Below, one piece after another: positions 1,743 through 11,584 of a DNA stretch of 64,000 nucleotides; the stretch's first letter is position 1, and the number at the start of each line of letters is the position of its first letter. The notes under the pieces are model-generated. The model made no database searches. It worked only from the letters and a program-made list of their open reading frames with translations, and was not told the origin of the DNA. A program made the position numbers and the translations under genes. Source of the stretch: Acholeplasma hippikon (GTDB taxonomy: Bacteria; Bacillota_I; Bacilli_A; Acholeplasmatales; Acholeplasmataceae); the NCBI RefSeq assembly GCF_900660755.1, contig NZ_LR215050.1, forward strand, positions 124,001 through 188,000. The letters are read 5' to 3'.

Positions 1743-1831
1743 GGAACAATACTCAAGTGGCTGAAGAGGCAGGCTTGGAAAGCTTGTAGGCTGTCAAAGG
1801 CGCGCGGGTTCAAATCCCGCTTGTTCCGCCA
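1743..1831 (+). tRNA. tRNA-Ser (anticodon GGA)
   Basis: Acceptor stem GGAACAA (1743-1749) pairs with TTGTTCC (1821-1827), followed by discriminator G and an encoded CCA (1829-1831). The anticodon stem CAGGC/GCTTG holds loop TTGGAAA with anticodon GGA, reading UCC and UCU. The T arm is GCGGG-TTCAAAT-CCCGC. The long variable arm is the class II feature expected for tRNA-Ser. It lies 12 bp after ptsI. Confidence 0.95.
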
Positions 1832-2136: not shown

Positions 2137-2331
2137 ATGGATTACCAACGACTAGTGAAGGAATTAAGACTAAAACTAATTTTATCTCAACAAGAATTTG
2201 CAGATTTGCTTAATGTTTCTTTTGCGTCCATTAATAGATGGGAAACTGGAAAACACGAGCCAACGATTAAAATAAAGAGAAAAATTGTGGAATTATGCAA
2301 ATATAACAACATTAAATTGGAGGATGAATAA
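2137..2331 (+). CDS. Small XRE-family helix-turn-helix regulator
   Basis: A 64-residue protein that is almost only a Cro/cI-type HTH domain: the segment LSQQEFADLLNVSFASINRWE (residues 17-37) contains the two DNA-contacting helices. It has a strong AGGAGG ribosome site and ends 2 bp before hsdM, so it is the first gene of the restriction operon. By analogy with controller proteins of restriction-modification systems it may time or limit hsd expression by binding the 19-bp-spaced repeats upstream; this is inference from position. No partner toxin is seen next to it, so an antitoxin role is less likely. Confidence 0.85.
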   Translation: MDYQRLVKELRLKLILSQQEFADLLNVSFASINRWETGKHEPTIKIKRKIVELCKYNNIKLEDE

Positions 2332-2333
2332 AT

Positions 2334-4901
2334 ATGAATAAACAACAATTAGCATCAAAAATTTGGGAATCAGCTAATAAAATGAGATCAAAAATTGAAG
2401 CTGGTGAATATAAGGACTATATATTGGGTTTCATGTTTTATAAGTTCTTATCGGATAAAGAAGTAAAATTTCTTAAGGATAAGGGATATACCGAAGAAGA
2501 TATTATGATGCTTGATGAATCTGATAGTGAATCTGTAAAGTTTATTCAGAACAACATTGGATACTTTATCGCATATAAAGATTTATTTTCAACTTGGGTT
2601 GAAAAAGGATCTGATTTTGATGTAAGTGATGTACGGGATGCATTAAGCGCATTTGGTAGATTAATTAACAAGTCTCATAAAAAGGTATTTGATAGAATTT
2701 TCAACACACTTGAAACAGGTTTAAATAAACTAGGTGGATCTGCAGCAGAGCAAACAAAAGCCATTAGGGACTTAATTCAGTTGTTAAAGATAATACCTAT
2801 GAACGGAAAACAAGACTATGACATCTTAGGCTTTATATACGAATATTTAATTAGTAACTTTGCTGTTAATGCGGGAAAAAAGGCAGGAGAATTCTACACG
2901 CCACATGAAGTATCTTTGTTAATGTCAGAAATTGTTGCTGATCATTTGAAACATAAAGAAGAAATTAAAATATACGATCCTACTAGTGGGTCAGGATCTC
3001 TATTAATCAATATTGGACATTCTATCTCAAAACATATGTCTAACAAAGACAATATCAAGTACTATGCACAAGAACTAAAAGAAAATACCTATAACTTAAC
3101 ACGTATGAATTTAATTATGCGTGGTATTTTACCAGATAATATTGTTGTTAGAAATGGAGATACACTTGAAAATGACTGGCCATACTTTGACGAATCAGAT
3201 CCTCAGGGAACATATGATCCTTTATATGTTGATGCAGTTGTTTCAAACCCCCCATACTCTCAAAAATGGGATAGAGAAAATAAAGAATCGGATCCACGTT
3301 ATTCAGAATTTGGTTTAGCTCCTAAATCAAAAGCAGATTATGCTTTTTTATTGCATGATTTATTCCACGTTAAACCAGATGGTATTATGACAATTGTTCT
3401 GCCACATGGTGTTTTATTTAGAGGTGGAGAGGAATATGAAATCCGCAAAAATCTAATTGAGAAGAATCATATTGATGCAATCATTGGGTTACCAGCAAAT
3501 ATCTTCTTTGGTACAGGAATACCAACCATAATTATGGTGCTAAAAAAAGAAAGCAAAAAAAGCAATGATATTTTAATTATTGATGCGTCAAAAGGGTTCA
3601 TAAAAGTTGGCAACAAAAATCAGTTAAGAGCATCGGATATTAAAAAAATCACTGATACCGTAATCAACAAAGAAGAAATCGAAAGATATTCAAGAGTAGT
3701 AAGTATTGAAGAAATTAGACAAAATGACTATAACTTGAATATTCCAAGATATGTAGACTCATCAGAACCAGCTGAATCATGGGATATTTATTCTTTAATG
3801 TTTGGGGGAATTCCAAAGAAAGAAATTGAGAGCTTATCAAAATACTGGGAAGCATTTCCAAATTTAAAAAATGAATTATTTGAAGAAGTTAATGATGCAT
3901 ATGTATCCTTAAAACAAGAGGATATAAAACAAGTAATTGTAAAAAATAATGAAGTTAATAATTACATTAATAAATTTAAAGAACATTTCTCTGACTTTAA
4001 ACTTTTTATGCAAAAAAGACTTATTGAAAATATGACTACTTTGAGCATACCAAAAGAAGTCCAAGTTATTAGCAATGAAATTTTCAGAAAAATGGAATCT
4101 TTCAAATTGTTGGATAAGTATAAATCGTATCAAGCATTTGAAGATCAGTGGAAAAAAATAGCAATAGATCTTGAAATCATTCAAACTGAGGGCTTTGATG
4201 CTGTTAAAAAAGTTGATCCTAACATGGTGATAAAGAAAAAAGACAATAGAGAAGAAGAAGTCCAAGAAGGATGGATGGGCAGAGTTATTCCTTTTGAGAT
4301 TGTACAAAATACAGTCCTAAAAGCAGAGTTAACCCAACTTCAATCTAAAGAAGCAAGATTATCTGAAATTTTATCTAGCTATCAAGAAATTATAGACTCA
4401 TTATCTGAAGAAGAAAAAGAATTAGTACTAAATGATAATGGCGATGCATTTGATGCTAAAAAAGTTAAAGAACAAATTAAAGAACTAGATGATGATATAA
4501 ATGATGAAGAATCACTTAAATATAAGCTTGATAAGTATACCAAGCTTGCTTCAGAAGAGAAAGAACTTAAAAAAACAATAAAAAGTGATTCTGAAGATTT
4601 ACATATTAAAACAAAGGAAACAATTGAATCGTTATCGAATGAAAAAGCAATTGATTTATTAATTCATACATGGATTAATCCTCTTATGGAATCAATTAAT
4701 AAATTACCAAATGAAATCGTTAATGAGCTGACTTTAAAAGTCAAATTATTAAAAGAAAAGTATAATACTACATTCTCGGAAATAACAAAAGAAATTGCCA
4801 ACACACAAGAAACTTTACTTTCTTTACTTGATGAATTAGAAGGTGATGATTTTGATATGAAAGGTCTTAGTGAATTAAAATCACTAATAAAAGGTGATTA
4901 A
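2334..4901 (+). CDS. hsdM: Type I restriction-modification system, DNA methyltransferase subunit HsdM, with long C-terminal extension
   Basis: N6-adenine methyltransferase subunit of a type I system; it works with HsdS as methylase and with HsdS and HsdR as nuclease. HsdM_N helical domain at residues 1-150, GEFYTPHEV near 185, SAM-binding motif DPTSGSGSLL at 215-224, catalytic NPPYS at about 305. The family core is about 500 residues; this protein has 855. The extra 350 residues (about 500-855) are Lys/Glu-rich and look like long helices or coiled coil, with no motif I recognise. GGAGG precedes the start. Reading frame passes into hsdS without an intergenic gap. Confidence 0.95.
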   Translation: MNKQQLASKIWESANKMRSKIEAGEYKDYILGFMFYKFLSDKEVKFLKDKGYTEEDIMMLDESDSESVKFIQNNIGYFIAYKDLFSTWVEKGSDFDVSDVRDALSAFGRLINKSHKKVFDRIFNTLETGLNKLGGSAAEQTKAIRDLIQLLKIIPMNGKQDYDILGFIYEYLISNFAVNAGKKAGEFYTPHEVSLLMSEIVADHLKHKEEIKIYDPTSGSGSLLINIGHSISKHMSNKDNIKYYAQELKENTYNLTRMNLIMRGILPDNIVVRNGDTLENDWPYFDESDPQGTYDPLYVDAVVSNPPYSQKWDRENKESDPRYSEFGLAPKSKADYAFLLHDLFHVKPDGIMTIVLPHGVLFRGGEEYEIRKNLIEKNHIDAIIGLPANIFFGTGIPTIIMVLKKESKKSNDILIIDASKGFIKVGNKNQLRASDIKKITDTVINKEEIERYSRVVSIEEIRQNDYNLNIPRYVDSSEPAESWDIYSLMFGGIPKKEIESLSKYWEAFPNLKNELFEEVNDAYVSLKQEDIKQVIVKNNEVNNYINKFKEHFSDFKLFMQKRLIENMTTLSIPKEVQVISNEIFRKMESFKLLDKYKSYQAFEDQWKKIAIDLEIIQTEGFDAVKKVDPNMVIKKKDNREEEVQEGWMGRVIPFEIVQNTVLKAELTQLQSKEARLSEILSSYQEIIDSLSEEEKELVLNDNGDAFDAKKVKEQIKELDDDINDEESLKYKLDKYTKLASEEKELKKTIKSDSEDLHIKTKETIESLSNEKAIDLLIHTWINPLMESINKLPNEIVNELTLKVKLLKEKYNTTFSEITKEIANTQETLLSLLDELEGDDFDMKGLSELKSLIKGD

Positions 4902-4902
4902 G

Positions 4903-6159
4903 ATGGACAAGAATATGCGTACACCTTTATTGCGATTTAAGGGATTTACTGACGATTGGGAACAGTGTAAGTTATCTCAGTTTTATGATTTTTCAAAAGG
5001 TAAAGGCTTGTCATTGAATTCGTTTTATGAAGGAAAAGATTCGTTAGGCATTGCCTATGGTCACTTATACACAAAGTACACTGAAGTGATAAACAAAGTT
5101 AATTTAAGCACATATGATGATAATGGAGTATTGTCTAGAAAAGGAGATTTATTGTTTCCTGGATCAAGCACTGTTCCATTTGGAACAGCTCAATCTAACG
5201 CTATTATGTTGGATAATGTTAAATTAGGTGGAGATGTAATAATAGCTAGAGCAAAAGATTTATCTGTATATGCACCTTTTGTTAGTTATCAAATAAACGC
5301 CCAAAGAAGCAAGCTTTTTCCTATTACAGTAGGAACAACAATTACACATATGTATGGCAAGGACATAGCCAACATAGAATATATGTTTCCAAAATTTGAT
5401 GAACAAGAAAAAATTGGAAGAACTCTAGAGAGTCTGGATTCTCTTATCACCCTTCATCAGCGTAAGTATGATAAGTTAGTTAATATAAAAAAATCATTGC
5501 TAGAAAAAATGTTTCCCCAAAATGGAGAATCAATTCCAAGATTGCGATTTAAGGGATTTACTGATGCTTGGGAACAGTATAAGCTTGGTGATTTAGGATT
5601 TTTCAAATCAAATGGGGTTGATAAATTGTCCAAACCTAACGAGATTCCTGTAAACCTTCTGAATTATATGGATGTATATAATAGACGTGAAGTATCTAAT
5701 AAAAATGCAAATGAATTAATGCAAGTGACTGCAAAACCTAGTCAATTGATTGAGAATAGTGTCATGAAAAATGATGTTTTTTTCACACCAACTTCTGAAA
5801 CACCACAAGATATCGGACGTGTGTATGTTATTGAAGAAACGCTTAATAATACGGTTTATTCATATCATTTGATGAGATTTAGACCTAACCAAGGAACATA
5901 CTATCCAAATTTTCCAAACTATTCGTTAATGACTGAAAATGTTAGAAAGCAATTCTTTCTAGCAGCAAAGGGAGTTCAACGATATGTAATATCCAAAGCG
6001 GATTTCGAATCCATCGTAGATACTATTCCCGAATATAAAGAACAAGCAAAAATAGGGGAGTTTTTTAGATCAATAGATTCTCTTATCACCCTTCATCAGC
6101 GTAAGTATGAAAAACTACAAAATATCAAAAAAGCATTGCTTCAAAAGATGTTTGTCTAG
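4903..6159 (+). CDS. hsdS: Type I restriction-modification system, specificity subunit HsdS
   Basis: DNA-recognition subunit with two target recognition domains (TRD) and two conserved spacer helices. The protein is a clear internal duplication: RFKGFTDDWEQ near residue 10 matches RFKGFTDAWEQ near 215, and DSLITLHQRKYDKL near 182 matches DSLITLHQRKYEKL near 395. TRD1 lies at about 22-150 and TRD2 at about 225-360; the two TRDs differ, so a bipartite asymmetric site is expected. ATG at 4903 is preferred to the in-frame GTG at 4894, because AAAAGGTG sits about 8 bp before it. It is followed 15 bp later by hsdR. The matching DNA repeats make it a recombination target with the silent half at 9355. 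Confidence 0.95.
   Translation: MDKNMRTPLLRFKGFTDDWEQCKLSQFYDFSKGKGLSLNSFYEGKDSLGIAYGHLYTKYTEVINKVNLSTYDDNGVLSRKGDLLFPGSSTVPFGTAQSNAIMLDNVKLGGDVIIARAKDLSVYAPFVSYQINAQRSKLFPITVGTTITHMYGKDIANIEYMFPKFDEQEKIGRTLESLDSLITLHQRKYDKLVNIKKSLLEKMFPQNGESIPRLRFKGFTDAWEQYKLGDLGFFKSNGVDKLSKPNEIPVNLLNYMDVYNRREVSNKNANELMQVTAKPSQLIENSVMKNDVFFTPTSETPQDIGRVYVIEETLNNTVYSYHLMRFRPNQGTYYPNFPNYSLMTENVRKQFFLAAKGVQRYVISKADFESIVDTIPEYKEQAKIGEFFRSIDSLITLHQRKYEKLQNIKKALLQKMFV
4930..4952 (+). repeat. Direct repeat A, copy 1 (23 bp, 5' of TRD1)
   Basis: These 23 bp are identical to 5542-5564. Both are followed, 3-4 bp later, by TTGGGAACAGT. They mark the 5' edge of each half of hsdS. Confidence 0.85.
5442..5467 (+). repeat. 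26-bp hsdS repeat B, copy 1 (central spacer)
   Basis: Encodes the LITLHQRK segment after TRD1. The same 26 bp occur at 6081-6106 and 9864-9889. The last 12 bases, ATCAGCGTAAGT, recur inverted at 10851-10862. Confidence 0.9.
5542..5564 (+). repeat. Direct repeat A, copy 2 (23 bp, 5' of TRD2)
   Basis: Identical over 23 bp to 4930-4952; lies at the junction between the central spacer helix and TRD2. Confidence 0.85.
6081..6106 (+). repeat. 26-bp hsdS repeat B, copy 2 (C-terminal spacer)
   Basis: Identical over 26 bp to 5442-5467 and 9864-9889; encodes the same LITLHQRK segment after TRD2. Confidence 0.9.
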
Positions 6160-6174
6160 AAAGGAGATTGAAAT

Positions 6175-9100
6175 ATGGCTTTTGATAATGAATTAATTTT
6201 TGAAAAAGAACTTATATCAGTCTTGACTCAGTATGGTTGGGAAAGAGAAGTGATTAAGAACCCATCTGAGGAAGATTTAATTAAAAATTGGGCAAACATC
6301 CTTTTCGTAAATAATAGAGAGATTGACAGACTTAACAATCAACCTTTGACTGATACTGAAATGCAACAAATACTTGAACAGATAAAGGCTTTAAGAACAC
6401 CTTTAAAGTTAAATGGATTTATTAATGGAAAAACGGTATCTATCAAAAGGGATAACCCAAATGATACACTTCATTTTGGTAAAGAAATAAGTTTAAAAAT
6501 TTATGACAGAATGGAAATTGCAGCTGGAAGCAGCAAATACCAAATTGCCAGTCAACCCAGATTTAAAACCCCAGGTATATTAAATGATAGAAGAGGAGAC
6601 CTATTACTTTTAATTAATGGGATGCCTGTTATTCATATAGAGCTTAAAAAATCTGGCATACCAGTATCACAAGCTGCTAATCAAATTGAAAAATACTCTC
6701 GTGAAGGAGCATTTAGAGGTATTTTTTCTCTTATTCAGATTTTTGTTGCAATGAATCCGGAAGAAGCGATATATTTTGCTAATCCGGGAGAAGACAACAA
6801 ATTTAATCCAAACTTCTTTTTCCGCTGGGCTGATTTTAATAATGAACCAATTAATAACTGGAAAGAATTTACATCTAAACTTTTATCCATTCCTATGGCT
6901 CATCAATTAATAGGGTTCTACACAGTTGCTGATAATACAGATGGACTTCTTAAAGTTATGAGAAGTTATCAGTATTATGCTGCAAATGCGATATCTGATA
7001 AGGTTTCAAAAACAGATTGGACAGCTAAAAATAATTTAGGTGGATACGTGTGGCATACAACAGGATCTGGAAAAACAATGACTAGCTTTAAGTCGGCTCA
7101 ATTAATTGCATCATCAAAAGATGCTGATAAGGTAATTTTTTTAGTAGATCGTGTCGAACTTGGGACTCAATCATTAAATGAATACAAAAATTTTGCTAAT
7201 GAAAACGAAGACGTACAAGCTACCGAAAATACCAATGCGTTAGTTACAAAACTTAAAAGTAATGATCCCTCAAACACATTAATTGTTACTTCAATTCAAA
7301 AGATGAGTAGAATCAGTGAAGATGAAGGTGGATTAAAGGCTAAAGATATCGAATTAATGAAATCAAAACGCATTGTTTTTATCGTTGATGAAGCCCACCG
7401 ATCAACTTTTGGTGAAATGCTTTATACAATCAAGAAAACCTTCCCACAAGCCATTTTCTTTGGATTTACAGGAACACCTATCCATGAAGAAAACGAGAAA
7501 AATGATTCTACTACAGTGGATGTTTTTGGGGATGAATTACACCGATATAGCATAGCTGATGGAATTAGAGATAAGAATGTTCTTGGCTTTGATATCTATA
7601 AAGTACTGACATTTAAAGACATTGATTTAAGAAAAATGGTTGCTTTAGAAAAGGCAAAAGCTACTAGTGAAATTGAAGCAATTTCCGATCCAAATAAACA
7701 AGCAATTTATTATACATACATTAATGATGTTTCGATGGCGGGTTATTATGATGAAGCTGGTACCTATACTAAAGGTATTGAAGATTATGTTCCAAACTCA
7801 CAATACGATAATATCAAGCATCATGAAATGGTAGTTGAGGATATCCTCACAAATTGGACTACATTAAGTAGAAACTTTAAGTTTCATGCTACTTTTGCAA
7901 CAAGTAGCATAAAAGAAGCCATTGATTATTATAGACTTTTTAAATCTAAAGACTCAAATTTGAAAGTTGTTGGATTATTTGATCCAAGTATTGATAATAA
8001 CGGTAATACAACGTTTAAAGAAGTAGGACTAGTTGAATTGCTAGAAGACTATAATACAAGATATGGAATGTCTTATACACTTGGTAATTGGGATAAATAT
8101 AAAAAAGATATTGCTTTAAGATTAGCACATAAAGAACCATATATTAATATAGATAAAACACCTGAAAAGCAAGTAGATTTGTTAATAGTAGTTGATCAAA
8201 TGTTAACAGGATATGATTCAAAATGGATTAATACGCTATATGTTGATAAAATTTTAAAATATGAGCAAGTCATTCAAGCATTTTCTAGAACCAATCGCTT
8301 ATTCGGTCCTGACAAACCGTTTGGTACCATAAAGTATTATAGAAAACCACATACAATGGAAAAGAATATTGAAAGAGCTATCAAATTATATTCAGGTGAT
8401 AAACCGCTTGGACTATTCGTTCCAAAAATTAAAGAAAATTTAGAACGAATGAATGCGATATACAGAGAAATTGAAGAATTATTCAAAACAAATGGAGAAA
8501 CAGAATTCACAAGATTACCTGAAGATTCAGCATCAAAAGCCAAATTTTCTAAACTATTCAGACAACTTAACGAGGTGTTGGAAGCTGCAAAAATTCAAGG
8601 TTTTAAATGGCAAGACGTTAAAAAAGTAGAACATCTAAAAGGTGATGAATTAGAAATTAAGTTTGATGAAAAAAAATATTTAACATTAGCACTAAGATAT
8701 AAAGAACTACCAACATCTGAAAAAATCAAATTAGATGATGTGCCTTATGAAATTGATGGATACTTAACAGAAATAAACACGGGTTTGATTGATACGAACT
8801 ACATGAATTTAAGATTCGATAAGTATCTAAAAGCTCTTAATGAAGGGAATTTAGAAGAGCAGATGAAAACACTACATGAACTTCATAGTACTTTCGCAAC
8901 ATTAACTCAGGAAGAACAAAAGTATGCAGCAATTTTCTTAAGAGACGTTGAACGTGGTGATGTAAAGATTGTTGAAGGTAAAACTTTACGAGATTATATT
9001 ACCGAGTATCAAGTAAAAACAAAAAATGATCAAATTTCAAAATGTGCGTTATTACTTGGATTAGATGAATCGAAACTTAGACAGCTTTTAACAATTAAGG

Positions 9101-9309
9101 TAACGATGCATTCAATTAATGAATTTGGACGTTTTGATGATCTTAAAAATACAGTTGATATTTCAAAAGCAAGATTGTTCTTTGAAAAAATAGAAAAAAC
9201 AAAACTGACACCTCCAAAAATTCATATTAAGGTCGATGAATTTCTAAGAAAATTCATCTATGAAAGTGGATTTGAAATAAAGTTACCTACTGATGAAGAA
9301 AATGATTAA
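6175..9309 (+). CDS. hsdR: Type I restriction-modification system, endonuclease/translocase subunit HsdR
   Basis: ATP-dependent DNA translocase and nuclease subunit; cleaves unmodified DNA away from the recognition site. The nuclease domain shows the PD-(D/E)xK pattern RRGDLLLL (Asp about residue 142) and HIELKK (about 154-159). The SF2 motor has Walker A TTGSGKTMTS (about 293-302), DEAH box VDEAHRST (about 404) and FTGTP motif III; QAFSRTNRL near 700 is motif VI-like. Length 1044 residues is typical. Start at 6175 has AAGGAG upstream. Third gene of an M-S-R operon; appears intact, so the system should be able to restrict. Confidence 0.95.
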   Translation: MAFDNELIFEKELISVLTQYGWEREVIKNPSEEDLIKNWANILFVNNREIDRLNNQPLTDTEMQQILEQIKALRTPLKLNGFINGKTVSIKRDNPNDTLHFGKEISLKIYDRMEIAAGSSKYQIASQPRFKTPGILNDRRGDLLLLINGMPVIHIELKKSGIPVSQAANQIEKYSREGAFRGIFSLIQIFVAMNPEEAIYFANPGEDNKFNPNFFFRWADFNNEPINNWKEFTSKLLSIPMAHQLIGFYTVADNTDGLLKVMRSYQYYAANAISDKVSKTDWTAKNNLGGYVWHTTGSGKTMTSFKSAQLIASSKDADKVIFLVDRVELGTQSLNEYKNFANENEDVQATENTNALVTKLKSNDPSNTLIVTSIQKMSRISEDEGGLKAKDIELMKSKRIVFIVDEAHRSTFGEMLYTIKKTFPQAIFFGFTGTPIHEENEKNDSTTVDVFGDELHRYSIADGIRDKNVLGFDIYKVLTFKDIDLRKMVALEKAKATSEIEAISDPNKQAIYYTYINDVSMAGYYDEAGTYTKGIEDYVPNSQYDNIKHHEMVVEDILTNWTTLSRNFKFHATFATSSIKEAIDYYRLFKSKDSNLKVVGLFDPSIDNNGNTTFKEVGLVELLEDYNTRYGMSYTLGNWDKYKKDIALRLAHKEPYINIDKTPEKQVDLLIVVDQMLTGYDSKWINTLYVDKILKYEQVIQAFSRTNRLFGPDKPFGTIKYYRKPHTMEKNIERAIKLYSGDKPLGLFVPKIKENLERMNAIYREIEELFKTNGETEFTRLPEDSASKAKFSKLFRQLNEVLEAAKIQGFKWQDVKKVEHLKGDELEIKFDEKKYLTLALRYKELPTSEKIKLDDVPYEIDGYLTEINTGLIDTNYMNLRFDKYLKALNEGNLEEQMKTLHELHSTFATLTQEEQKYAAIFLRDVERGDVKIVEGKTLRDYITEYQVKTKNDQISKCALLLGLDESKLRQLLTIKVTMHSINEFGRFDDLKNTVDISKARLFFEKIEKTKLTPPKIHIKVDEFLRKFIYESGFEIKLPTDEEND

Positions 9310-9323
9310 TTATCTGTTGATTA

Positions 9324-9350
9324 GAAGAACCTATACTGGTTCTTTTTTTC
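9324..9350 (+). terminator. Terminator after hsdR
   Basis: AGAACC (9326-9331) pairs with GGTTCT (9338-9343), 6-nt loop, then seven T. It closes the hsd operon immediately before the silent hsdS half, which therefore should not be expressed from the operon promoter. Confidence 0.85.
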
Positions 9351-9354
9351 TATT

Positions 9355-9912
9355 ACTTGGGAACAGTGTAAAATAGGACAGTTTGGTTTTTATATATCAG
9401 ACGGAAACTACGGCGAGCTTTATCCTAAGGTTGATCAACTGATTAACCAAGGTATCCCATTTATAAGAGTTAATAATATTAAAAACGGTTATCTAACTAA
9501 TAAAGACCTTATTTTTATTCCAGAAAAATTGCACGAAACACTTTTAAGTGGTCATTTAGAAACTGATGATATCCTTATAACGAATAGGGGACAAATTGGC
9601 TTAGTAGCATATGTTGATAGATCCTTTAACAACGCTAATATTAACGCTCAAATTTGTTTGATTAGAACTAGTAAAGAAATGTATAGTAAGTATCTTCATC
9701 AATACTTACAAACAGCAAGTTCACAATCTGAAATACTAGCTTTTCAAACAGGAAGTGCATTAAAGCAATTACCTCGAGCTAGACTAAATGATTTAACAGT
9801 TAAGTTCCCCGTCAATAAGACTGAGCAAAAATTTATTGGAGACTTGTTCTTTAGTATTGATAATCTTATCACCCTTCATCAGCGTAAGTGCGAGTATATT
9901 TTATTAATTTAG
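9355..9912 (+). pseudogene. Silent, start-less hsdS half (one TRD plus spacer helix)
   Basis: An open frame with no start codon at its head begins at TWEQCKIGQF (same as DWEQCKLSQF at the head of TRD1 in hsdS), continues through a different TRD, and ends with FSIDNLITLHQRKCEYILLI. It is thus one complete HsdS half. Its 5' edge shares TTGGGAACAGTGTAA (9357-9371) with hsdS 4956-4970; its 3' edge shares 26 bp (9864-9889) with both hsdS spacers. It lies directly behind the hsdR terminator and has no ribosome site; internal TTG at 9529 would give only a fragment. Best read as a storage cassette for exchanging DNA specificity; a decayed second hsdS is the alternative. Confidence 0.85.
9864..9889 (+). 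repeat. 26-bp hsdS repeat B, copy 3 (silent half)
   Basis: Identical over 26 bp to 5442-5467 and 6081-6106, in the same orientation. Its last 12 bases are the core found inverted at 10851-10862. Confidence 0.9.
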
Positions 9913-10821
9913 TCCTGATAGCAGTCTCATTACTTGATCTATGTCTTTATTTTCTAATTCTTGTATAACATGTAAATATATTTTCTGAGTGGTTGTCATA
10001 CTAGCATGACCAAGTCTTCTAGCTACACTTGCGATCGAAACTCCCGAATATAGCAGCAATGAGGCGTGTGTATGACGCAATCCATGAATTGATATCTGAG
10101 GAATATTTACTCTTTTACAATGTCTAGCTAAAATCTGATTTATAGTAGAATTGTATGTCTTACCATCAATAAAAATAGGTTTATTCTTATCTAAATTATT
10201 TAATAATCCAGCAAATTGCGTAACAGTTTTCCAATCAATCTGTATTTTTCTAATTGATGATTTATTCTTTGTTTCTTGAAAACCTCCTATCCCTTTGTAA
10301 TCCCATGTCTTATTAATTGAAATTGTTTGATTTGCATAATCAAAATCTTTAGCAGTAAGACCAAGTGCTTCCGAAAATCTCATACCTGTTTTAGCGATGA
10401 TAAGTATTAACCAGTCTGCATTAATTTTACTTGATAACTCTAAATTAGATATTAGTGTTTGAAGTTGAAATTGATTTAAGTATTTAATTTTCTTCTCTTT
10501 CGGTTTTTTTCCTTTAATAATCACTTTTCTAGTAGGATCATTTGCAATTAATCCTTCGTCAACTGCATCCAAAATTGATCCTTTAAGTTGGTGATGAAAA
10601 TCCATAGTTGTTTGCTTTTCATGTGTTTTTGCATAATCATTTAGCAACTGTTGATAAATAGTTCTAGTTAACTCGTTAGTTTTTAAATTAGGTACTAATT
10701 TTTTCAACCATCTTAATGTTAAGTAATATTTCTTTAAAGTTACATTTTTAACTGCTCCTTCTTTATATAGTTTTATCCAATTTTCATAATAATCAACAAA
10801 TAGTTTATGTCTTCTTTGCAT
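9904..10821 (-). CDS. Tyrosine recombinase (phage-integrase family), probable hsdS shuffler
   Basis: A 305-residue site-specific recombinase with the full catalytic set: Arg148 (TGMRFSEA), His246-x-x-Arg249 (HGLRHTH), His272 (RLGHAS) and nucleophile Tyr282 (QKIYLHV). An N-terminal SAM-like core-binding domain covers about residues 1-100. It converges on, and overlaps by 9 bp, the silent hsdS half. Tyrosine recombinases next to hsdS genes are known to rearrange specificity domains in mycoplasmas and streptococci; here the flanking 12-bp inverted repeat (9878-9889 and 10851-10862) is a candidate site. It could instead be the integrase of a mobile island; no tRNA-derived att copy was found at the other end. 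Confidence 0.9.
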   Translation of the reverse strand: MQRRHKLFVDYYENWIKLYKEGAVKNVTLKKYYLTLRWLKKLVPNLKTNELTRTIYQQLLNDYAKTHEKQTTMDFHHQLKGSILDAVDEGLIANDPTRKVIIKGKKPKEKKIKYLNQFQLQTLISNLELSSKINADWLILIIAKTGMRFSEALGLTAKDFDYANQTISINKTWDYKGIGGFQETKNKSSIRKIQIDWKTVTQFAGLLNNLDKNKPIFIDGKTYNSTINQILARHCKRVNIPQISIHGLRHTHASLLLYSGVSIASVARRLGHASMTTTQKIYLHVIQELENKDIDQVMRLLSGLN

Positions 10822-10850
10822 TTTAAAATCCTTTTCTATATTTTTATAAA

Positions 10851-10862
10851 ACTTACGCTGAT
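10851..10862 (-). repeat. Inverted 12-bp copy of the hsdS repeat core
   Basis: ACTTACGCTGAT is the exact reverse complement of ATCAGCGTAAGT found at 5456-5467, 6095-6106 and 9878-9889. On the minus strand it is read in frame with the recombinase start as DQRKF, resembling the HQRKY of the HsdS spacer. Confidence 0.7.
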
Positions 10863-10910
10863 CAAAATCAAGTATTAGAAGTATCTAGATATGAATTATC
10901 AGGTATCCAG

Positions 10911-11192
10911 ATGCAAGATAAAGAAAGTTTTGTTCCATATGAAAAATTTCAAGTACATCCAGCATCAGATAAAATAAAAGTTGAAGTCATATCTATTCAA
11001 TCTAAAAATGGATTTTGGACTGAACAAAGATGGAGTTTTGACCAAATAGATGATGATACTGAACTGCTAAATGCTAAATGTGAAATTGAGTACAATAAAT
11101 ATAAAATGGTATATTTCCCAGACTGGTTATATATTCTTTGCTTAATCTTATTTGGATGCTTAGTCGTTGAAATATTTAAAATACTTAATTAG
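10911..11192 (+). CDS. Hypothetical protein with C-terminal membrane helix, possibly 5'-truncated
   Basis: I do not recognise this 93-residue protein. Residues about 72-90 (DWLYILCLILFGCLVVEIF) form one membrane helix at the C-terminus. The frame stays open upstream of ATG 10911 back to 10827 and reads like protein (ADQNQVLEVSRYELSGI), but it has no further start codon and includes the 12-bp inverted repeat at 10851. This suggests an older, longer gene whose 5' end was lost when the recombinase block arrived (inference). The ribosome site is weak (AGGT at 10901). It lies 11 bp before the superoxide reductase gene and may be co-transcribed with it. Confidence 0.5.
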   Translation: MQDKESFVPYEKFQVHPASDKIKVEVISIQSKNGFWTEQRWSFDQIDDDTELLNAKCEIEYNKYKMVYFPDWLYILCLILFGCLVVEIFKILN

Positions 11193-11203
11193 AGGCTACT
11201 TAA

Positions 11204-11584
11204 ATGAAAATATTTGAATGTGAATCATGTAATGATGTTTGGATTAAACTACAAGTAGCTGAAACGATGAATTGTTGTCAAAATGAATTACATCAAGTAA
11301 AAGAGAATATGGACCCTGAAGTTATTGAAACACACACACCAATCATAAAGAAAATGGGAGATTTCATTTACGTAGAAGTCAATAAAGAACATCCGATGCT
11401 TGATGTACATCATTTAGAATTGATTATTATAGAGACCAATCATGGAGTTCATGTAAAAAAACTATTTTCACAAAATTTAATAAAGGCACAATTTATCCTA
11501 ACTGAAGGGGAAGTTATCATCAATATATATGTATATTGTAATGTACATCATTTAATTAAAATAACAGATATAAATCTTTCGTAA
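11204..11584 (+). CDS. Desulfoferrodoxin-type superoxide reductase
   Basis: Non-haem iron protein that reduces superoxide to peroxide without releasing oxygen, cytosolic. The 126 residues match the desulfoferrodoxin layout: a rubredoxin-like centre I with Cys6, Cys9, Cys24 and Cys25, then the catalytic Fe(His4Cys) centre with His44 (THTPII), His63 (EHPM), His69, Cys112 and His115 (YCNVHH). Ligand spacing (19, 6, 43, 3) closely follows the family (20, 6, 41, 3). The conserved Glu is present at 42, but the usual catalytic Lys before the first His is Thr43. Electron donor could be rubredoxin or another reductase; none is adjacent. Assignment is from motifs only. Confidence 0.85.
   Translation: MKIFECESCNDVWIKLQVAETMNCCQNELHQVKENMDPEVIETHTPIIKKMGDFIYVEVNKEHPMLDVHHLELIIIETNHGVHVKKLFSQNLIKAQFILTEGEVIINIYVYCNVHHLIKITDINLS

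Follow-up and report, generated by a model that had tools for sequence, protein, structure and literature searches.

A silent target recognition domain beside a tyrosine recombinase gene: a probable specificity switch in a type IC restriction-modification locus of Acholeplasma hippikon

Behind the type I restriction-modification genes hsdM, hsdS and hsdR of the low-GC bacterium Acholeplasma hippikon lies half of an hsdS gene that has no start codon and carries a third target recognition domain (TRD), and the question that this locus raises is whether the stored half can be exchanged with the expressed specificity gene and, if so, by what agent. The window, i.e., the whole stretch of DNA that was analysed, comprises 64,000 nt (GCF_900660755.1, NZ_LR215050.1 positions 124,001-188,000), and coordinates are counted from its first base. 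We consider it likely that TRD cassettes are exchanged here by an adjacent tyrosine recombinase, either via excision and reintegration or between sister chromosomes. The locus contains the following elements.

2334-4901 (+): hsdM, modification subunit, 855 amino acids (aa); Pfam N6_Mtase E 3e-105, HsdM_N
4903-6159 (+): active hsdS with two TRDs; Pfam Methylase_S, two stretches
4956-4970 (+): 5′ site before TRD1, TTGGGAACAGTGTAA (15 bp); repeat comparison
5442-5467 (+): 3′ site after TRD1, 26-bp repeat TCTTATCACCCTTCATCAGCGTAAGT; repeat comparison
5568-5582 (+): 5′ site before TRD2, TTGGGAACAGTATAA, one mismatch to the other two 5′ sites; repeat comparison
6081-6106 (+): 3′ site after TRD2, 26-bp repeat TCTTATCACCCTTCATCAGCGTAAGT; repeat comparison
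6175-9309 (+): hsdR, restriction subunit of type IC; Pfam HSDR_N, SWI2_SNF2, EcoR124_C
9323-9346 (+): terminator-like hairpin, then a T run; hairpin search
9357-9371 (+): 5′ site before silent TRD3, TTGGGAACAGTGTAA; repeat comparison
9358-9912 (+): silent HsdS half with TRD3, no start codon; Methylase_S E 8e-12, shuffle test
9864-9889 (+): 3′ site after TRD3, 26-bp repeat TCTTATCACCCTTCATCAGCGTAAGT; repeat comparison
9904-10821 (-): tyrosine recombinase of an hsdS-associated family; Pfam Phage_integrase E 7e-23, relatives
10852-10866 (-): site D, an inverted, degenerate 3′-type core and fourth copy, containing GATCAGCGTAAG; two mismatches

Based on their sequence, the active genes hsdM-hsdS-hsdR form a type IC restriction-modification system. 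The three genes lie on the plus strand in that order, hsdS encodes two TRDs, and the assignment to type IC follows from the EcoR124-type C-terminal domain of HsdR (Pfam). The methylase domains of the 855-residue HsdM stop near residue 480 and are followed by a long C-terminal extension.

The silent frame (9358-9912) is open over 184 codons, with an internal TTG at 9529 as its first possible start. When this AT-rich segment was shuffled 20,000 times, the frame never remained open, and the cassette is therefore not a random frame. It spans WEQCK to LHQRK, that is, one TRD between two types of site, and lacks the linker found after each TRD of the active hsdS; its end is overlapped by the end of the recombinase gene. 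The hairpin at 9323-9346, directly before the cassette, is the sole plus-strand terminator-like hairpin detected in 8900-11300; because one was observed against 0.7 expected in shuffles, its position is telling, but the count is not. A first-pass annotation of this DNA had described a start-less HsdS half with a third TRD, ends made of the same DNA that flanks the active TRDs, and a terminator in front. All three descriptions hold, the shared ends being exact direct copies of 15 bp and 26 bp. A candidate for TRD3 in an active position among near relatives was rejected: the best match, the C half of a 430-aa HsdS in genome G107, is 53% identical and lies on a contig that may be a contaminant.

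Each TRD in the window is preceded by a 5′ site, TTGGGAACAG[CT]GTAA, which encodes WEQ[RC]K, and followed by a 3′ site, CTTCATCAGCGTAAG, which encodes LHQRK. A search of the 1.47-Mb genome for site copies gave three occurrences of the exact 13-mer CATCAGCGTAAGT, every one in this locus, and the inverted copy at site D is one of four one-mismatch matches to it genome-wide. Site D lies 30 bases upstream of the start of the recombinase gene, and when the 130 bp that precede the gene were shuffled 100,000 times, a site as good as this one arose in only 5 shuffles. Neither an inverted TRD nor an inverted 5′ site was found in the locus, the sole inverted element being site D, so the earlier statement that all copies are direct is right for the TRDs and wrong for the sites. 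Because all TRDs share one direction, exchange cannot be a single inversion; we rejected simple inversion as the route, since inversion between 9874 and 10852 would flip the recombinase gene only.

To place the recombinase in its family, relatives were drawn from a scan of species genomes (one genome per species), with the best 80 of 363 recombinase relatives kept. These 80 are 66-83% identical to the protein of the window over nearly its whole length and come mostly from Firmicutes, and also from Actinobacteria, Succinivibrionaceae and others. Six residues (R148, K185, H246, R249, H272 and Y282) are invariant in an alignment of 86 family members, and we take them to be the catalytic set that is expected of a tyrosine recombinase. 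Among 83 loci examined, hsdM, hsdR or TRD cassettes lie near the recombinase gene in 71, and many of the loci without hsd neighbours are short contigs. A plus-strand 3′ site is present within 130 bp before the gene (start side) in 50 of 75 loci, a minus-strand 3′ site within 130 bp after it (stop side) in 49 of 81; the two occur together in 35 of 73. The window fits these family traits, with hsd neighbours and both flanking 3′-type sites, one of them with two mismatches. Across the relatives, the consensus is TGGGAACAGCGTAAG for the 5′ site and CTTCATCAGCGTAAG for the 3′ site, with CAGCGTAAG common to both; the three direct 3′ sites of the window match this consensus exactly, and its 5′ sites are 1-2 bases off (CAGTGTAA before TRD1 and TRD3, CAGTATAA before TRD2).

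The closest relative, an Acholeplasmataceae locus (L021; JAUSOA010000106.1) with an 83% identical recombinase, has the same gene order as the window (hsdS, hsdR, direct silent TRD, recombinase, inverted 3′ site). Its recombinase gene, however, is in the opposite orientation, both flanking 3′ sites are exact, and the contig ends on both sides. This orientation suggests that the two sites on either side of the recombinase gene may allow the gene to flip. Recombinase relatives on Ligilactobacillus salivarius plasmids were set aside because they lie beside adhesin genes, not hsd genes. One of them (L182, 12001-12924; 58% identical) adjoins a GbpC/Spa-domain adhesin gene and a PemK-type toxin gene, and the family may thus also rearrange surface genes.

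Cassette layout was classified automatically in the 33 loci with hsdM on the contig, the window counted in. Silent TRDs were direct only in 12 loci, in both orientations in nine, inverted only in four and undetected in eight, and these counts are rough because the rule that separates active from silent copies misassigns some cassettes (e.g., L035, L065, L069, L084). The direct-only layout is common in the recombinase family (about 12 of the 25 hsdM-linked loci with a silent cassette), and direct orientation is not exceptional.

Related loci carry traces of cassette movement. For example, two Enterococcus raffinosus megaplasmids (L201 and L202), whose recombinase is 62% identical to that of the window, differ by a clean reciprocal exchange in which the active and the silent hsdS have traded N-terminal TRDs, with the 5′ and central sites as its boundaries. 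In Collinsella, two TRDs recur in the loci L078 and L089. One (96%) is the C half in the former and the N half in the latter, and the other (97%), active in L078, is silent in L089. Four loci contain TRD copies at two positions that are 99.6-100% identical (ungapped comparison): the active N TRD equals the silent TRD in L056 (Catenisphaera adipataccumulans), the N TRD equals the C TRD of one active HsdS in L087, two silent copies are near-identical in L079, and a silent TRD matches the active C TRD at 99.8% in L093 (Clostridiaceae BL-3), on a 3.1-Mb contig. In L056, L079 and L093 the identity breaks off at most 1-2 bases from the site at either end, and the adjoining DNA is unrelated; upstream of the 5′ site in L087 it runs 15 bp further, into generally conserved hsdS sequence. 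No inverted TRD was found in the stretch examined of any of the four. The two TRDs of the L087 protein, which comes from a metagenome assembly, are identical over 501 bp (4384 onwards), and such an HsdS would be expected to read a symmetric target.

Based on family membership and site similarity, we infer that these sites are substrates of the recombinase and that the locus of the window switches. In the proposed mechanism, the enzyme would recognise two short kinds of site inside hsdS, a 5′ site before and a 3′ site after each TRD, and strand exchange at one 5′ pair and one 3′ pair would let TRD3 replace the N-terminal TRD of the expressed hsdS, and possibly the C-terminal TRD as well. The old TRD would then be stored behind the terminator, and the sequence that is methylated and cut would be altered. 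An excised circle could reintegrate at the other type of site, as in the pneumococcal tvr locus, or exchange could occur between sister chromosomes, which would also give copies. We add the second route because a conservative swap within one chromosome does not explain the near-identical copies in related loci, which point to a sister-chromosome step.

In silico recombination between the 5′ sites of TRD1 and TRD3 releases a circle that carries hsdR together with TRD1 and TRD2, and what stays behind encodes a half HsdS of 202 aa. If the circle then reintegrates through the 3′ sites of TRD1 and TRD3, the product is a 425-aa HsdS (TRD3-TRD2) with a silent TRD1 and intact hsdR and recombinase genes; use of the other 3′ site leads to a half HsdS of 212 aa. 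Placed as the C half, TRD3 is also in frame (416 aa). Together with the related loci, these products give good support to the first-pass proposal that the silent TRD is stored for in-frame exchange with hsdS. The agent named there, gene conversion or excision, was an incomplete account, as the adjacent tyrosine recombinase had been overlooked and conversion of the RecA type on 15 bp is unlikely.

Among known systems, the window appears to work most like pneumococcal tvr (SpnIV; PMC6265443), which has direct silent TRD segments, two types of direct repeat, a tyrosine recombinase in the locus and in-frame TRD exchange; in the window, likewise, a direct silent TRD lies between the two repeat types of the active hsdS, and a recombinase is part of the locus. 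The two differ in that tvr places the silent parts and the recombinase between hsdS and hsdR, whereas hsdR separates hsdS from the cassette in the window, and in that tvr has tvrAT genes and an attenuator, neither of which was found here. No open frame resembling tvrAT was detected between hsdR and the recombinase gene, and Pfam returned nothing in 10842-11189; because tvrAT genes are absent, we do not class the window as a tvr locus. Its 5′ and 3′ sites match the recombination sequences agcttgggaacagcgt and cttcatcagcgtaag of the Listeria monocytogenes ST8 hsd locus, the 5′ site with 1-2 mismatches, and the inversion breakpoints mapped there are agcttgggaacagcgt and ctatcgctcttcatcagcgtaagttagat (PMC4783014). 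Both breakpoint sequences occur exactly, in inverted pairs, in an L. innocua plasmid locus (L203) with the gene order hsdS-int-hsdS and a recombinase 61% identical to that of the window. However, the ST8 system switches by inversion and has two full hsdS genes inverted around the integrase, whereas the window has one direct half-cassette. Pneumococcal cod/ivr (SpnIII/Spn556II; PMC4948785, PMC7096588) shares with the window a type I system and start-less silent hsdS parts, and its tyrosine recombinase PsrA acts on a 15-bp repeat inside hsdS. Its silent genes are inverted, with long inverted repeats and switching mainly by inversion, whereas the window lacks an inverted silent hsdS. For the same reason, with its TRDs all direct, the locus does not belong to the inverting type I systems ('epigenetic invertons'), which have inverted silent hsdS. 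A possible recombinase is also described for a Mycoplasma agalactiae hsd locus (PMC9465063).

Several observations weigh against recombinase-driven exchange in the window. The locus is known in a single arrangement (one genome per species), and the 5′ site of TRD2 is one base off in its core, so that exchange at this site may be less efficient. Site D is degenerate and no silent TRD is left on that side, which may mean that part of the locus has decayed, and excision in cis would put hsdR on a circle that could be lost. Two of the loci with repeated TRDs (L087 and L079) are metagenome or draft assemblies, in which exact repeats could be assembly artefacts, and the likeness to the PsrA and TvrR systems is one of locus arrangement.

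Some of these points would suit a frozen relic, in which the cassette and the recombinase are left from a richer locus with an inverted silent TRD beyond the recombinase (as in L022) and no longer switch. Besides the single remaining silent TRD, the two mismatches of site D and the altered TRD2 site, this explanation can draw on the neighbouring gene at 10842-11192 (+), which aligns with a 172-aa protein of genome G006 from about residue 56 (BLASTP E about 3e-7). This gene appears to lack its first ~55 residues, with the break at site D, and the gene after it matches in G006 too. Because of this break, the right side of the locus appears to have undergone rearrangement at a recombinase site and may thereby have lost an inverted TRD of the kind that L022 retains. 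We nevertheless regard a relic as unlikely, given a TRD3 frame that stays open where no shuffle did, a full-length recombinase with its presumed catalytic set, three exact direct 3′ sites, and 5′ sites of TRD1 and TRD3 that are identical over 15 bp.

The broken right-hand gene would equally suit a recombinase whose main activity is to flip its own gene, using the inverted 3′ sites at 9874 and 10852, or to mobilise the island, with TRD exchange incidental; inverted sites do flank the recombinase gene in the window and in relatives, and the gene is turned around in L021. Self-inversion would, however, have no need for the 5′ sites of silent TRDs or for 3′ sites in coding sequence at the ends of TRDs, and a search of the first 20 kb gave no second attachment site on the left side of the locus, which makes this explanation improbable. 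Still less probable is RecA-dependent gene conversion or homologous recombination at the repeats without the recombinase, even though the repeats are direct and conversion would likewise yield the near-identical copies of related loci. We rejected RecA-type conversion as the main route because the repeats offer homology of just 15 bp (5′ edge) and 26 bp (3′ edge) and the copies in related loci stop within 1-2 bp of the sites. In addition, a site-associated recombinase gene adjoins in most of the family, and in pneumococcal tvr the loss of recA does not abolish circle formation, and shuffling at the short repeats depends on the recombinase (PMC6265443). Recombinase-driven exchange thus remains our preferred explanation.

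To the left, the locus is bordered by two further features.

1743-1831 (+): tRNA-Ser(gga), after ptsI
2137-2331 (+): small helix-turn-helix gene, directly before hsdM

In all six genus members for which the downstream stretch was compared, ptsI is likewise followed by tRNA-Ser(gga). The tRNA-Ser spot may be a place of island insertion, as different genes come after it across genus members, and a search of the genus for an empty site gave no clean one. In genome G007, a 70%-identical helix-turn-helix gene follows the same tRNA-Ser without hsd genes.

The locus is a further example of an already known kind of switch, in the less-studied all-direct layout, and the organism can probably change which of its DNA sites are methylated and cut. 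A survey of REBASE for switching type I systems was restricted to inverted repeats of 20 bp or more (PMC7394358), and direct-only loci would therefore be missing from its counts. As a tentative extension, about which we have more doubt than confidence, direct-oriented, recombinase-linked TRD cassettes may form a large class of type I switch that surveys of inverted repeats have missed, spreading TRDs by sister-chromosome copying so that any TRD can come to occupy either half of HsdS or both; an HsdS with two identical TRDs could thus arise and would be expected to read a symmetric target. Were cassettes copied in addition to being swapped, the repertoire of TRDs could shift more quickly and through more combinations than inversion alone permits. 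The finding adds a probable specificity switch linked to a recombinase in low-GC bacteria of the Acholeplasma type, and it shows that a direct-only layout is frequent among loci of this recombinase family.

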